38,534 bases of DNA. Source: a virus. This document shows, piece by piece, positions 3,146 to 24,138 of the stretch. The DNA lies in the IMG/VR virus record IMGVR_UViG_3300037628_000369, positions 1 through 38,534 of that record, one strand, 5' to 3'. The translations under genes were made by a program, and so were the position numbers. The notes beneath the pieces are model-generated. The model was given only the letters and a program-made list of their open reading frames with translations, did not search any database and was not told where the DNA came from. The stretch's first letter is position 1. The number at the start of each line of letters is the position of its first letter.

Positions 3146-5236
3146 TTAATTGTAAGTGACAAGTCCGGTAGTAGGATTATATCTGAGGGCATGTGTCCCT
3201 GCTGCCTCAGTTATATTCCCCATGTAAATAAGTCCCCCATTACTAATCGAAAAGTCCGCGCTTGATAATGAGGCGAAGCCTGTCCCTGAATGGATTTGAA
3301 AACAGGTTTGACCATAGACATAGCCTAGCGTCCAAATAGTGGTAGAACCCTGTACTAAGTGAATCTTTACATCCTCATCTGAATCCTTTGTCTGAAACCA
3401 AAACTTCCCTATTGCATCCATCTTAAAGGGTGTCCGGTAATCGGTTGTGGTTGAGCCGCGCAACATGAAATTCATTCTACTTGCCAATCCGGTACCCTCC
3501 GATTGAACCGCTATAACTCCGTAACTTGAATTGCCTGAACTGCCACGGGCCATTAAATAAATTGCTGTATAATCATTTGACCCATAATTTGCGGCTGCGC
3601 GGTTAACGGCAATACCTCTGTTTGCTGGGAGTGTAGTTGGAAAATCTGACCATGCTAAATATGAAAGATCGTTTTCCAAGGTTAAAATTTGGGTACCTGT
3701 GCTGTAAGGTGTATTTATACCTACATGACCTAATATCGTTAATGGTGTACCTATTGAACCTGCCACTGTGGTGAATGAGCTTTGGCCGGTGGCTGAATCT
3801 TTGCCATCCGGCCTAAAATAACAACTACCTGTAGAAATTGGGCTAACCATTACGGTAGTTGTGCTACTGCGTAAATGCGTATTGGCCCAAATATCCCCGG
3901 CCACGTGTAATTTTGTGCCGGGCGAATCCGTTCCAATTCCTAAATTTCCATCCTGTGTTAATATTAATTTTAATTGACCTGATCCATTTAGAAATCCAAA
4001 ACCTGTTGCGCCTACGCTTGTATAACCGATATACCATTTCCCGACCGTTGCATTTTGAAATTGCAGATATGTATTCGCAGCACCTGTATCTAATATTTGA
4101 ACCGTGGCATTCCCAACTGATTTAATGTGTAATATTTCAGCGGGTGTTTCCGTTCCGATCCCGATTCGTCCACTTGAATCAAGTGTCATGCCAAGAAGAG
4201 AGGTGACATTAAAATAGAAAAATCGCAATCCGTGCCGTGTACTTGCTGTTTCCCGCTTACCGGAAATTTCTGCATAACGGCCTGCCGCATCAGACTCAAA
4301 ACGAATGTAACCTGTTCTTATTTGACTTGTACCGACATTCCGCTTTATCAATATCCCAATGTCCTCAGTCGCATCATAAACCACAAATTTATCTGCCGGG
4401 TTAACAATTCCGATCCCGACATGACCCTCATCTGTAATTATCATTTTTCGGCCAAAATTCCCAAACTGATCAGCGCAATAAAATTGCAGATTTCCAGCAT
4501 CGGGGTCGGTTGCGTTATTACCATAGATACCAGCTATTCGCTTACCGGACGCGGAAGATGCAAGGTTTGTGAATATTACTTGTCCGACTGCATTTTGATC
4601 AGTCCGATTACCTCCCAAATATAAAACACCAAAACCATTTGTTGTGGTTGTTGCAATCTGAATCCTGTATGTACCGCCTACATTAACAAAAGTTGATTGA
4701 TTACCGAAAATTCCATTCCCTTGGATGTGCAATTCTGCGTTTGCTGTTGCTGAATAATTTACCGCTAACTTATTATTAAAATAACTCTCACCGCTTGCCT
4801 TTAAAACAAGGTTTGCATTTGCCGATGATGGAGACAAGCCATTTGTTACGAAAAGTAAATAACCCAGCGTAGTGCTACACGTTATATAATTTGCTCCGGC
4901 GCGGTCAAAATCTAATATTTGACCATTGAGCTTTATTGTATACCCACCTGTTATTGATTCAAATGTCCCGGCCACGATGGAATTACCGGTTACATTAATA
5001 CCGCCTGCATTTACGATAATACCGGCCTCAAAAATTCCCTGATTGTTCCAAGTTTTTACGCCGTTAACGGTTTCATTACCTGTGAGTTTGACATATAATA
5101 CATCCGTTTGCGCTTTGTCCAGCAAATTGTCAGTGTCATATTTTAAAGCCTCCGATAACCCGGCCTCATCCACTGCAATATATTTTCCGCTTTTATCGCT
5201 GGTTTCCACCAACTCATGTATGCGCTTATCTGCCAT
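3146..5236 (-). CDS. Tail fibre / receptor-binding protein
   Basis: Protein of 696 residues with the low-complexity, beta-rich, Gly/Thr/Ser/Asn-rich composition of trimeric fibres. Residues 1-60 carry a short attachment-like domain. The motif GxGIGTxxPxxxLHI/V recurs at about residues 272-282, 357-371 and 431-446, a spacer found in many tail fibres and surface fibres of Bacteroidota phages. I see no C-terminal S74 intramolecular chaperone (no Ser-Lys-Asp maturation signature), so the protein probably folds without self-cleavage. The gene lies downstream of the baseplate genes, as expected for the host-recognition device. Confidence 0.85.
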   Translation of the reverse strand: MADKRIHELVETSDKSGKYIAVDEAGLSEALKYDTDNLLDKAQTDVLYVKLTGNETVNGVKTWNNQGIFEAGIIVNAGGINVTGNSIVAGTFESITGGYTIKLNGQILDFDRAGANYITCSTTLGYLLFVTNGLSPSSANANLVLKASGESYFNNKLAVNYSATANAELHIQGNGIFGNQSTFVNVGGTYRIQIATTTTNGFGVLYLGGNRTDQNAVGQVIFTNLASSASGKRIAGIYGNNATDPDAGNLQFYCADQFGNFGRKMIITDEGHVGIGIVNPADKFVVYDATEDIGILIKRNVGTSQIRTGYIRFESDAAGRYAEISGKRETASTRHGLRFFYFNVTSLLGMTLDSSGRIGIGTETPAEILHIKSVGNATVQILDTGAANTYLQFQNATVGKWYIGYTSVGATGFGFLNGSGQLKLILTQDGNLGIGTDSPGTKLHVAGDIWANTHLRSSTTTVMVSPISTGSCYFRPDGKDSATGQSSFTTVAGSIGTPLTILGHVGINTPYSTGTQILTLENDLSYLAWSDFPTTLPANRGIAVNRAAANYGSNDYTAIYLMARGSSGNSSYGVIAVQSEGTGLASRMNFMLRGSTTTDYRTPFKMDAIGKFWFQTKDSDEDVKIHLVQGSTTIWTLGYVYGQTCFQIHSGTGFASLSSADFSISNGGLIYMGNITEAAGTHALRYNPTTGLVTYN

Positions 5237-7504: not shown

Positions 7505-9208
7505 TTATTGCGTTATTGGTTCAACGTCTGCCAATGCTTCACCCATTGCGCGGGTAATTGCCATTTTAACCTCAAATGCGCTTTCTTCCAAATTCGTGGT
7601 GTTTATTTCTTGCGTTTCAATCAATTTTTCAATATTGATATTAAACGTTTTTGGTGCTGCGCCGGTTATAGTGGCAATCTGTTTTGCGGCTTCCGGTGCT
7701 GCATCCAATTTTGCAAATTCAATTTCTTCACCCGGCGGTACAAAACCGGTTATGGTTTCAAATAATTTTTGCAATTGGTCGGGGCTTTCCATTTTAAGTA
7801 TTTCACTGTTTATCTTCGCTAATTCACCCCGCCGCCTTTTAAGCCAATCCCTATCCAATAATTTTTCCATTGGCTTTTTAATGCCAAATACCTGTGCCGC
7901 ATCTTTGACGGTATATTGTATAAACCCGCGTTTTTTTATCACTTTTTCAATGCCGCCTGCTTCCGCAATCCGTTTAGTATTCCACTCAATTTCCTGTTGT
8001 AATTTCCAATATTCTTTGTCAAGTGCTTTACGCAAATCTTTCATTTCAGTTACACCGGAATCTTTCAAACGCTGCATCAATGCGGCCATTTCTTCATCAA
8101 CTGCCTGCGTTTCCAATCCTTTTTCACCCAACGCCGCCAATGATAAACCCTCTGCAAATTGAGTTGCAAGTTTTATGGCACCCCGGAAAACATTTGTTAT
8201 TTCACCCTCACCCTTATTAAGATTTAATACAAAACCCTCCCACGCTGAATTTAAACCCAAAATATCACTTTTCAGATTATCGGTATTTACGCGGGCCTGT
8301 TCGTATGCAATGTTTGTGCCGGTCATTGCAACGGTTAAATCTTCATACTTTTCACGGCTTTTAATTAATGTTTGCGCGGCCAATACATTTTGACGGCCAA
8401 ACATTTTTGTTAGTTCGGTAACGTTATCTTGAATTGGTGCCAAATTTTCAAGTGCTTTGCCCAATCCAACAATTGACGGGTTAATATTTCTGTCAGTGCT
8501 GCCGCCCAATTTCAATAGAACGTTACGCAACTGAATACCGGCCCGCGCACCTTTCAAATTCTTTGCGCTCAATGTTTCAACGGCTGCCGCGCTTTCCTCC
8601 AATGTAATGCCCAATGATGCGGCCACGCCTCCAAATTCATCTAATGACGCGGCCAATTCAGGTATTTCGGCAGCGGCAAACTTTGAACCGGCCGCCAATA
8701 CGTTTATCACGCGGCTGCTTTGATCCGCTGCCAAATCAAATTGATTCAATGCGCTGGTTAATGATTTGGCGGCCGCGGGTACATCTAACCCGCTGGCCTC
8801 ACTTAATGCAATGGCTTCTTTGGTTGTGGCGGCCAATGCAGCGGCATTACCCAATAATTCAGGTTTTGCGCTGGCAATGAGTTTAAAACCCTCTAATGCC
8901 TCTATTGAACTTTTTGTTGTGGCACTACCTAATTCAATGGCTTTACGTTTCAGAAAATCCAAATCATCACCCGTGGCACCTGTGATTGCTGAAACATTGC
9001 TGGCTACTTCTTCAAAATCGGCCATTGTACTGACCATTTTCCCAATGCCACGCGCTACACCGGCCACGGCTGCCATACCTAAAAACCGTTTGCCTAAACC
9101 CATCATTTGCTGATCAAGGGTTTTAGTAGCTTTGGACATACCACGCAATTTGCGTGTCATATTATCACGCAAACCAATGATATATTCAACCCTATCAGTT
9201 ACCGGCAT
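7505..9208 (-). CDS. Tail tape measure protein (TP901 type)
   Basis: Protein of 567 residues, Ala-rich and helical. It has an N-terminal region typical of TP901-core tape measure proteins (TMADFEEVASNVSAITGA, then KRKAIELGSATTKS and further alternating helices to about residue 320). Family knowledge: tape measure length sets tail length, so this tail should be fairly short. A hydrophobic Gly/Ala-rich segment lies near residues 40-60. Its start overlaps the end of the -1 frameshift product of the upstream tail chaperone by 14 bases, an arrangement common to tailed phages. Confidence 0.9.
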   Translation of the reverse strand: MPVTDRVEYIIGLRDNMTRKLRGMSKATKTLDQQMMGLGKRFLGMAAVAGVARGIGKMVSTMADFEEVASNVSAITGATGDDLDFLKRKAIELGSATTKSSIEALEGFKLIASAKPELLGNAAALAATTKEAIALSEASGLDVPAAAKSLTSALNQFDLAADQSSRVINVLAAGSKFAAAEIPELAASLDEFGGVAASLGITLEESAAAVETLSAKNLKGARAGIQLRNVLLKLGGSTDRNINPSIVGLGKALENLAPIQDNVTELTKMFGRQNVLAAQTLIKSREKYEDLTVAMTGTNIAYEQARVNTDNLKSDILGLNSAWEGFVLNLNKGEGEITNVFRGAIKLATQFAEGLSLAALGEKGLETQAVDEEMAALMQRLKDSGVTEMKDLRKALDKEYWKLQQEIEWNTKRIAEAGGIEKVIKKRGFIQYTVKDAAQVFGIKKPMEKLLDRDWLKRRRGELAKINSEILKMESPDQLQKLFETITGFVPPGEEIEFAKLDAAPEAAKQIATITGAAPKTFNINIEKLIETQEINTTNLEESAFEVKMAITRAMGEALADVEPITQ

Positions 9209-9688
9209 TCAAATTTATTTTAATATCTATTACCCCCACTTCACCCAAAAATTCCAATTCCCGTGTTAATTGTGCATACAAATCAGCGTTTAAATCTGCC
9301 GGGTTCAGCTTATAAAAAAATCGGATCAGTGCAACAAAATGCCCATGCCCGATTTTTCCCGCATCCAATTTATACTGATCTAATTTTTTTTTATCTCAGC
9401 ATCAACAGGTGCAACATATTCGTTAAACAATTCAACACAAACGGCAATTAATAGCCGGGCATTTTCTTCAATGTATTCATCAAACTCAATGCAGCATAAT
9501 TCCCAAATTGATTTACCCGCGCCTGCCATATCCAACTTTCTACCAAAACCAACTGATACACTCAACGCAGCGCTTAATTGCTCAAATGACGGTTGTTGAA
9601 TTTTGTATTTATAATCTTTACCCTCATGCGTAACAGTAAATGAATCAAAACCGGCATTGGTGCGGGCAATTATGGTTTTCTTTTTCAT
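9195..9688 (-). CDS. Tail assembly chaperone, -1 frameshift product
   Basis: The zero-frame chaperone ends ATA AAA AAA AAT TAG with nine A in a row (minus strand of 9384-9392). A -1 slip there continues the reading frame for 62 more codons to a TGA at 9195-9197 and gives a protein of about 164 residues. The extension begins LDQYKLDAGKIGHGHF and has a regular helical amphipathic composition, as expected for coding sequence. It fills the 170-base gap before the tape measure, which would otherwise be empty. Family knowledge: most tailed phages make such a G/GT-type fusion. Frameshift efficiency is not known from sequence. Confidence 0.75.
9380..9688 (-). CDS. Tail assembly chaperone, short form
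   Basis: Protein of 102 residues, acidic and helical in its second half. It lies between tail tube and tape measure, the position of lambda G, Mu gp41 and P2 E. These proteins coat the tape measure during tail assembly. It ends with an A9 slippery run directly before its stop codon, which produces the longer fusion listed separately. The short form would be the major product. Confidence 0.75.
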   Translation of the reverse strand: MKKKTIIARTNAGFDSFTVTHEGKDYKYKIQQPSFEQLSAALSVSVGFGRKLDMAGAGKSIWELCCIEFDEYIEENARLLIAVCVELFNEYVAPVDAEIKKN

Positions 9689-22072: not shown

Positions 22073-22819
22073 TTAACCACCGCCCGCGGCCAATGCGGCC
22101 AATATCACAATAACCACGGCACCGGCAATTTGCCAAATGCGGCTTGATTTTTTCGTTTGCTCAATATGCGTGGCCTGCGCGTCAATCTGTTCAATTTGAT
22201 TCATTACAATGGTTTCCAACTGCATTTGCGTTTTGCGTAATTCATCTACCTGCAAAGTGCGGTTTTCAATAATTGTATCTTTCATTAAAAGCTGCTCATT
22301 TTGCTCATGCACGCGCTGTTTTAATGCATCATGCATGCCGCTTAAACTTGTATGCTCAACGTATGTTAAATGCATGCGGTTAATCTGCAATGCGCTAAAT
22401 GGCATGTTTTTTATGCCGGGCAAATTGTATGCGGTTTCGTTTAAATAGCTATAACTGCTATCAGCAGGTATTTTGGTAATTGAATCTGCTAAACCCTCAT
22501 ATCTGACATATAAACGGGTGTAATGGTCAACCAAATCATTTACACGGCCCTCACTGCGCCCAATGGCCGCTTCTAAATGCTCAATTGCCTCATCTTTGGC
22601 AATCAAAATTGAATCACGTGCGTTTACCTCATCCATCAGTGCCGCATTTTCAATATTCAATCCGGTGGTTAACCGGGTTAATTCTGCAAACTGTGCGCGG
22701 GTACATCCATTGCGTAAAACGCTGCCGCCAAATCCAACCAACAAAATGATCAAAACCACTGACCGCACCCGCGTAAAAAACTTTGCGATCTTGTCTAAAT
22801 CAGTTAAAAATTTGCTCAT
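22073..22819 (-). CDS. Two-TM coiled-coil protein, spanin-like
   Basis: Protein of 248 residues starting MSKFLTDLDK (22819). Another start at 22831 is in frame, but the ATG at 22819 overlaps the TGA of the upstream zinc-ribbon frame as ATGA, which favours it. TM1 is about residues 19-35 and TM2 about 228-245. Between them lies a long, largely coiled-coil region with repeated Leu/Glu heptads. It sits next to an endolysin and a holin-like gene. An elongated periplasmic bridge between two membrane anchors fits a unimolecular spanin, but both TM segments may lie in the inner membrane, so the assignment is an inference. Confidence 0.55.
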   Translation of the reverse strand: MSKFLTDLDKIAKFFTRVRSVVLIILLVGFGGSVLRNGCTRAQFAELTRLTTGLNIENAALMDEVNARDSILIAKDEAIEHLEAAIGRSEGRVNDLVDHYTRLYVRYEGLADSITKIPADSSYSYLNETAYNLPGIKNMPFSALQINRMHLTYVEHTSLSGMHDALKQRVHEQNEQLLMKDTIIENRTLQVDELRKTQMQLETIVMNQIEQIDAQATHIEQTKKSSRIWQIAGAVVIVILAALAAGGG

Positions 22820-22923
22820 ATCGTTACCCATTCATTTTTTAGAGGTTTGCCGCAAAAATTGCAGCATTTCGCATACGTCCAACCGGTAGCATCTTCACAC
22901 CGGCATGCGCTTACTTTTTTTTT
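22816..22923 (-). CDS. Zinc-ribbon extension of the holin-like protein, -1 frame
   Basis: The frame following the A9 run at 22915-22923 reads, after three Lys codons, VSACRCEDATGWTYAKCCNF, then CGKPLKNEWVTI and a TGA at 22816-22818. Four to five Cys in the pattern CxC, CCxxC make a small zinc ribbon. There is no ATG, GTG or TTG in this frame after the preceding stop codon, so it can be made only as a -1 frameshift fusion to the upstream three-TM protein, or the A-run has one more A than sequenced. The TGA overlaps the ATG of the next gene (ATGA), which supports translation of this frame. Confidence 0.6.
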   Translation of the reverse strand, partial: KKKVSACRCEDATGWTYAKCCNFCGKPLKNEWVTI

Positions 22924-23216
22924 CCGTTAAACAGTTTAGTTATGTATTTAAAAATCAATTCATGCAGTGCAAAACCAAGTGCATAGCTGAAAATTACCTG
23001 CACCCATCCGGTTTTTGTCCAAATCAAAAAAGGAATTGCCAACAACGTGGCCAATGCTAAAACAGTGTACACCGGTTGCCAATTGAACCGGGTCACTTTT
23101 TGCAGGATTACGCCAAAATATCTATTGCCAGCAAATGCAAGCAAAATGAATGTCAAAAAATATGGTATTGATATGTAATTTGCGACCTGTGACCAAACGC
23201 CGTTCATCCATTCCAT
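22911..23216 (-). CDS. Small membrane protein, holin candidate
   Basis: Protein of 101 residues with three hydrophobic segments near residues 15-33, 48-66 and 70-88 and a C-terminal basic end (NGKKK). This is the topology of class I holins, which form the lethal membrane hole. It lies between endolysin and spanin-like genes, in a lysis cassette order. It ends with GGA AAA AAA AAG TAA, so a run of nine A precedes the stop codon and allows a -1 frameshift into a zinc-ribbon sequence (listed separately). Confidence 0.65.
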   Translation of the reverse strand: MEWMNGVWSQVANYISIPYFLTFILLAFAGNRYFGVILQKVTRFNWQPVYTVLALATLLAIPFLIWTKTGWVQVIFSYALGFALHELIFKYITKLFNGKKK

Positions 23217-23227
23217 AATATTATTTT

Positions 23228-23689
23228 TTAGTCTGTATTTACGAAATTCAACCGCCTGAAACCCAATAACCGGTTAATTGGGTACGGTTTAATATTTACC
23301 CGGTTATCCTGATTACCGCCAAAACAATGGATTAAATCATTTTCAGAATCGTGGCCCATGTATAAACCAACGTGGCCTTTCCAGCTTGTGAGAGATTCAC
23401 GCCAAAAAACAACAACATCACCCGGTTCCGGGTTTGGAATATTACGCCCAACATTCAACCAGCTACGTGAATCTAATTTATTGCTGTATTCAACGCCGTT
23501 TATTTTTGCCAAAAAATTGATCCACGCACTGCACCACGCCGTTTCGTCCGTTTTTACGTACGTATGGCCAATCTCATTGAAAAAATTGAGTATGGTTAAA
23601 TTGTGCTGTTCGCCGGGAATTTCCTGCAATAGATAGTACGTTGTTGCGTCCAACAACATACATTGGCGTGGTATTAAATCTCTTTGCAT
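23228..23689 (-). CDS. Endolysin, NlpC/P60-like (TIGR02594 type)
   Basis: Protein of 153 residues. The motifs are AWCSAW with catalytic Cys53, GDVVVFWR near 90-97, GHVGLYMGHD with His106, and FGGNQDNRVNI near 123-133, followed by LLGFRRL. This set is the signature of the TIGR02594 group of cysteine amidases or endopeptidases that cut peptidoglycan. No signal peptide is visible, so release through the holin is expected. It is the first gene after a candidate late promoter. Confidence 0.85.
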   Translation of the reverse strand: MQRDLIPRQCMLLDATTYYLLQEIPGEQHNLTILNFFNEIGHTYVKTDETAWCSAWINFLAKINGVEYSNKLDSRSWLNVGRNIPNPEPGDVVVFWRESLTSWKGHVGLYMGHDSENDLIHCFGGNQDNRVNIKPYPINRLLGFRRLNFVNTD

Positions 23690-23704: not shown

Positions 23705-23754
23705 TGCGCGGCTCAGATAGTCAAGGGAAAAGAGTTAAAAAACTACTGTGTCAG
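23705..23754 (-). promoter_or_regulatory. Candidate late promoter of the lysis-portal unit
   Basis: TGCGCGGCTCAGATA (plus-strand reading, 23705-23719) is identical to that at 14749-14763. GTGTCAG lies at 23748-23754, 28 bases from it. The element ends 15 bases before the endolysin start codon, so the transcript leader would be very short. Confidence 0.6.
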
Positions 23755-23760
23755 TGATAG

Positions 23761-24138
23761 TTAGTTTTTTCCAATCTTGGTGAGTTTCAGGGCCATTTCA
23801 ACTTGCGTTTTAATATCAGCAAATAAATGTTCCGGGTCACAATTAGCTTCTTTTTTCTGACATGAATCAGATTTATTACAATTTCCGCATACATCTTGCA
23901 AAATCTTATTTGATAAGAAATTCATAACCACATTTACAAGCAATTCAGCGGTTTCGCCGTTGGCCAACATGCAACTAACCATAAATTCAAGTAAATCCAT
24001 TTTGCCGCTGCCGGCATTTAGTGCAGCAGTTTCTAAATCTGCCATTACAAAAAAATCGTTTCCATTTTTCATGGCAATTCGTAATAATTGCAATAATGTT
24101 TCAATTTGGGCTTCTGATGGTGCTTTTTGGTATTTCAT
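23761..24138 (-). CDS. Hypothetical protein with a Cys-rich C-terminal part
   Basis: Protein of 125 residues, helical, with CGNCNKSDSC near residues 86-95 and another Cys at about 106, which could bind a metal ion. It follows the large terminase by nine bases. No family is recognised. It ends just before the candidate late promoter. Confidence 0.55.
   Translation of the reverse strand: MKYQKAPSEAQIETLLQLLRIAMKNGNDFFVMADLETAALNAGSGKMDLLEFMVSCMLANGETAELLVNVVMNFLSNKILQDVCGNCNKSDSCQKKEANCDPEHLFADIKTQVEMALKLTKIGKN

Follow-up and report, generated by a model that had tools for sequence, protein, structure and literature searches.

A conserved cysteine-rich frame without a start codon follows an A9 run in the lysis cassette of an uncultivated virus and is probably joined to a holin-like protein by slippage

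Genes of the lysis cassette and the A-run

The window, i.e., the whole stretch of DNA analysed here, spans the 38,534 bases of a record from an uncultivated virus. It contains a Mu-type portal gene (PF06074) as well as tail sheath and tape measure genes, and all morphogenesis and lysis genes that we examined are on the minus strand. By portal and terminase, phages of Flavobacterium and Bacteroides are among the closest annotated relatives, so that the host of this phage is likely a member of Bacteroidota. The cassette is transcribed in the order lysin-like gene, holin-like ORF, cysteine ribbon frame and coiled-coil gene. The first of these (minus strand, 23228-23689) encodes an NlpC/P60-CHAP protein, which matched TIGR02594 above the cut-off and a PHROG tail lysozyme (7.8e-24), and lies upstream of the gene for a membrane protein of 101 amino acids (minus strand, 22911-23216); the last one (minus strand, 22073-22819) encodes a coiled-coil protein of 248 amino acids.

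The membrane protein has three hydrophobic stretches and a positively charged C-terminal tail, the third stretch being below threshold in the copies of two related records, L009 and L003. No positive charge is present at its N terminus, and the charges of the first loop and of the C-terminal tail are +3 and +5. If all three helices are present, the positive charge in this loop and in the tail predicts the N-out/C-in orientation of a three-helix class I holin, which would put the ribbon-bearing C terminus in the cytoplasm. AlphaFold returned helices with a mean pLDDT of 58, and no significant match to a described holin family was found in Pfam, PHROGs or NCBIfam. We refer to the protein as 'holin-like' because of its topology and its adjacency to two unrelated types of endolysin (NlpC/P60-CHAP in the window and in L009, phrog_465 in L003); a function as a holin is plausible.

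The zero frame of the holin-like gene ends with ...AAC GGA AAA AAA AAG TAA (NGKKK and stop) and includes a run of exactly nine A's (A9; minus strand, 22915-22923), which contains A_AAA_AAG, a slippery heptamer of the X_XXY_YYZ type in the zero frame. The -1 frame at this junction, taken from stop to stop (minus strand, 22816-22926), reads RKKKVSACRCEDATGWTYAKCCNFCGKPLKNEWVTI and has neither ATG nor GTG nor TTG; the part that would be read after a slip (22819-22914) is VSACRCEDATGWTYAKCCNFCGKPLKNEWVTI, followed by a stop. This stop, a TGA at 22818-22816, shares the tetranucleotide ATGA (minus strand, 22816-22819) with the start of the coiled-coil gene. The run of nine A's, the cysteine-rich frame devoid of start codons and the stop-start overlap had all been pointed out in a preliminary description of this DNA, and each is borne out by the sequence.

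The cysteines of the -1 frame follow the pattern CxC-x11-CxxCGKP, i.e., two pairs, the second as CxxCG, both in the window and in its closest relative, and because of this pattern metal binding by the ribbon is plausible. No profile match of the ribbon was significant (the best Pfam hit, with an E value of 0.021, was below the cut-off), and a fold search, made with a query model of moderate confidence, gave no match with an E value below 3.9.

Conservation of the startless frame

Relatives were sought in IMG/VR with the holin-like protein (as a single sequence and as an alignment), the coiled-coil protein, the terminase, the portal and the ribbon as queries, and in GTDB genomes with the holin and portal alignments. 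These searches gave no relatives beyond three IMG/VR records (L003, L009 and L010), and among GenBank phages and plasmids no relative of the holin-like protein, the ribbon or the coiled-coil protein was found. L009 and L010, found through the portal search, encode a portal 70% identical to that of the window; as they do not differ over 4,796 bases, they are probably one virus assembled twice.

The cassette of L009 and L010 has the gene order of the window. The holin-like protein of L009 is 63% identical to that of the window, and its gene ends with ATA AAA AAA AAA TAA, i.e., with a run of ten A's (A10), found at the same place in L010; the slippery heptamer here is A_AAA_AAA. After the run, the -1 frame reads IKPCNCKKDSGWTYVKACNFCGKPKKDSWVIL up to a stop and has likewise no ATG, GTG or TTG. 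Here too, the TGA that closes the ribbon frame overlaps the downstream ATG as ATGA (2397-2400 in L009).

Between the two ribbons, 17 of 29 residues are identical, among them all four cysteines and the motif GWTYxK. When the same substitutions were placed at random, 10.5 identities were retained on average, and 17 or more were reached in 0.025% of the trials (P = 0.00025). The substitutions are distributed over codon positions 1, 2 and 3 as 8, 8 and 15, with pN of 0.27 versus pS of 0.75. Because of this bias towards synonymous change and an identity far above that of random placement, we conclude from the sequence comparison that the ribbon is under selection as a protein in spite of having no start codon. 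The frame junction is thus conserved together with a -1 ORF under protein selection, in two distinct viruses only. The proposal made earlier, that the ribbon is translated exclusively in fusion with the membrane protein, gains from the conservation of a startless -1 ribbon in a relative; production solely as a fusion is very probable for this reason.

The third record, L003, is more distant, with a holin-like protein 60% identical to that of the window. In this genome, an unrelated endolysin (phrog_465) is followed by the homologous membrane protein and the coiled-coil gene, with no ribbon, and the stop of the holin-like gene itself forms ATGA with the next gene (at 3303).

Additionally, IMG/VR was scanned for A7 followed by the pattern CxC...CxxCG, which gave 54 loci. 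Most of them had no ribbon in frame, and ribbon-like sequences elsewhere had their own start codon; the family of the window, L009 and L010 was the only one among the 54 loci with a startless ribbon joined to an upstream ORF. A recurrent small phage protein with four cysteines (e.g., MKKKGQVFRFCCSCSRMTLMLEYDGCYFCGGKF) was encountered in several viral contigs (L023, L024, L026, L027, L049, L061 and L068), where its start codon stands directly beside an A9 run.

Slippage on A-runs and its probable products

Runs of at least nine A or T are depleted in the window, with two observed versus approximately seven in first-order Markov simulations, and both of them sit at predicted -1 sites. The second A9 run (minus strand, 9384-9392) is located at the end of an ORF of 102 residues (minus strand, 9380-9688), just before the tape measure gene (minus strand, 7505-9208), and is accompanied by a -1 extension, an ORF of 66 codons (minus strand, 9195-9395). 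The product of this gene had no match in PHROG or Pfam. The L010 record carries an identical GAGATAAAAAAAAATTAGA site (A9) and a homologous -1 extension at this gene, and in the Flavobacterium phages pippi8-1 and FPSV-S1 the chaperone gene has A_AAA_AAG and a -1 extension. By its layout in sequence, the site at 9195-9688 is the G/GT arrangement of tail-assembly chaperones. That such genes undergo -1 recoding is firmly established (Xu, Hendrix and Duda 2004, cited by PMC4591317), and PMC5009743 describes it too. A9 stands at the chaperone site of both viruses and very probably functions as a -1 signal in the lineage.

We consider it likely that slippage on the A-run of the holin-like gene, by RNA polymerase, the ribosome or both, yields a minority of holin-ribbon fusions. 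Most ribosomes would stop at the TAA just past the run and produce the holin-like protein of 101 residues. A minority would enter the -1 frame, either on transcripts to which RNA polymerase has added an A or after backward slippage of tRNA-Lys on A_AAA_AAG, and would make a fusion of 133 residues with the four-cysteine ribbon on the predicted cytoplasmic C-terminal tail. We infer that this fusion is made and that it affects lysis: the minority form would probably join the same membrane oligomers and influence whether these open and at what time. Ribosomes reading the -1 frame would finish on the ATGA and could be handed over to the coiled-coil gene, and a role of the overlap in setting the expression of that gene, additional to that of the fusion, fits the same data. 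What the preliminary description had presented as a holin fused to a metal-binding ribbon is strengthened as far as the conserved, startless ribbon is concerned, the holin role and the binding of metal being plausible.

Between the two modes of slippage, which may both contribute, we lean slightly towards that of the transcript, because each of the four sites, i.e., both genes in either phage, has a run of nine or ten A's, because the efficient ribosomal heptamer A_AAA_AAG is found at one of the four only (the holin-like gene of the window) and because no downstream stem is conserved. The other three sites combine A9 or A10 with a heptamer weaker than A_AAA_AAG, and the runs at the holin-like genes, A9 in the window and A10 in L009, have the length of a transcriptional slippage site (nine or more A or T). 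A conserved RNA stimulator downstream of the run was looked for in the window and L009 and was not found: the z-score of the fold in the window was -2.6 for a stretch of 70 nt and only -0.6 for one of 58 nt, that in L009 was -1.1, and no Rfam match was obtained.

A more specific and rather unlikely reading casts the slipped product as an antiholin that carries a cytoplasmic Cys4 ribbon and senses metal or redox state. The ribbon form would hold the holin assembly closed until the metal or redox state changes, and the A-run would fix its dose, so that recoding would set the timing of lysis in the manner of tail assembly in this phage. We regard as distinctly unlikely that the slip serves mainly to pass ribosomes to the coiled-coil gene at the ATGA, its frequency setting the ratio of the proteins, with the ribbon being secondary. 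The overlap is indeed kept in all three viruses, through the ribbon frame in the window and L009 and straight from the holin-like frame in L003; however, mere passage to the ATGA needs none of the conserved ribbon residues, the four cysteines included.

Homopolymers are the commonest place for base-count errors, and if the true lengths were A10 (window) and A11 (L009), the arrangement would be a plain in-frame fusion. Such an error is very unlikely since the established G/GT site of the same genome has A9 too; moreover, each of three assemblies, representing two distinct viruses, is exactly one base short of the fusion, and the A10 named at the outset as the observation that would overturn the proposal was not seen in the window. 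The other such observation, a ribbon encoded separately and started by an ATG of its own, did not turn up among the relatives found. Translation of the ribbon as a separate small protein from a non-standard start codon would be in keeping with the many small Cys4 proteins of phages that are separate genes, including those beside A-runs in viral contigs that carry their own ATG. We think it highly improbable, as the codons before the first cysteine in the window are only CGG AAA AAA AAA GTA AGC GCA, and the ATT and ATA of L009 are not shared by the window. Least probable of all is a decaying remnant, i.e., a ribbon that was formerly an in-frame domain and was cut off by the loss of one base: L003 is wholly without a ribbon, but the change between the two diverged viruses is biased towards synonymous positions, and the four cysteines and GWTYxK are all kept. 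Slippage that yields a fusion of the holin-like protein with the ribbon is the reading that we prefer.

Known recoded and dual-form genes, and flanking features

As in the G/GT genes of lambda and many tailed phages, one start would give a short product and a minority -1 extension; unlike G/GT, the gene belongs to the lysis cassette and is extended by a cysteine ribbon of 32 residues and not by a domain binding the tail protein. For dnaX, a frameshift at A_AAA_AAG (E. coli) and transcript slippage on A9 have been described (PMC5009743). The run in the window is likewise nine A's long and contains A_AAA_AAG, whereas it has no conserved stem, and its shift leads to a longer product and not, as in dnaX, to a shorter one. 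The tail tube protein of SPP1, gp17.1/gp17.1*, is recoded by a +1 shift at CCCUAA (PMC6316719). This case resembles ours in that a minority of the copies receives a C-terminal domain, and differs in the direction of the shift and in that gp17.1* is a structural tail protein.

A membrane protein made in two forms, of which one would probably modulate the other, would also parallel the dual-start holins. In lambda, S105 and S107 are produced from dual starts, and the longer S107 modulates S105. Dual starts have been noted for the lysis genes of SPP1 as well (PMC6316719). In contrast to these, the forms proposed here would differ at the C terminus by recoding and not at the N terminus by a second start. 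Recoding in tailed phages has been documented mainly for tail genes, and in the open literature that pairs holins or antiholins with frameshifting we identified no recoded holin. Conserved slippage that provides a lysis membrane protein with an alternative cysteine-rich C terminus would, if true, be a new route to two forms of a holin. Startless extensions of this kind escape ordinary gene callers. Furthermore, A9 is apparently used in two unrelated genes of one phage, which points to a use of long A-runs as recoding signals in these genomes, where they are otherwise depleted.

The coiled-coil gene downstream is present in the window (22073-22819, minus strand), in L009 (2397-3140) and in L003 (3303-3998). 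In all three viruses both ends of the protein carry a hydrophobic stretch, the first of which is followed by Gly-Cys, and a canonical lipobox is absent at this conserved position. The L009 copy gave a weak match to the Rz-like phrog_8821 (E value of 0.029), and the protein may represent an unrecognised type of spanin without canonical lipobox.

Upstream of the lysin gene, CACTGACACAGT occurs in an inverted repeat in the window (approximately 23734-23766, minus strand) and in L009 (approximately 1466-1490). In the window the repeat is followed by a T-run and may therefore serve as terminator or operator. L009 additionally has a T-rich non-coding stretch upstream of this gene (984-1300, corresponding to 240-556 in L010), with diverged repeats that are approximately 60-77% alike.
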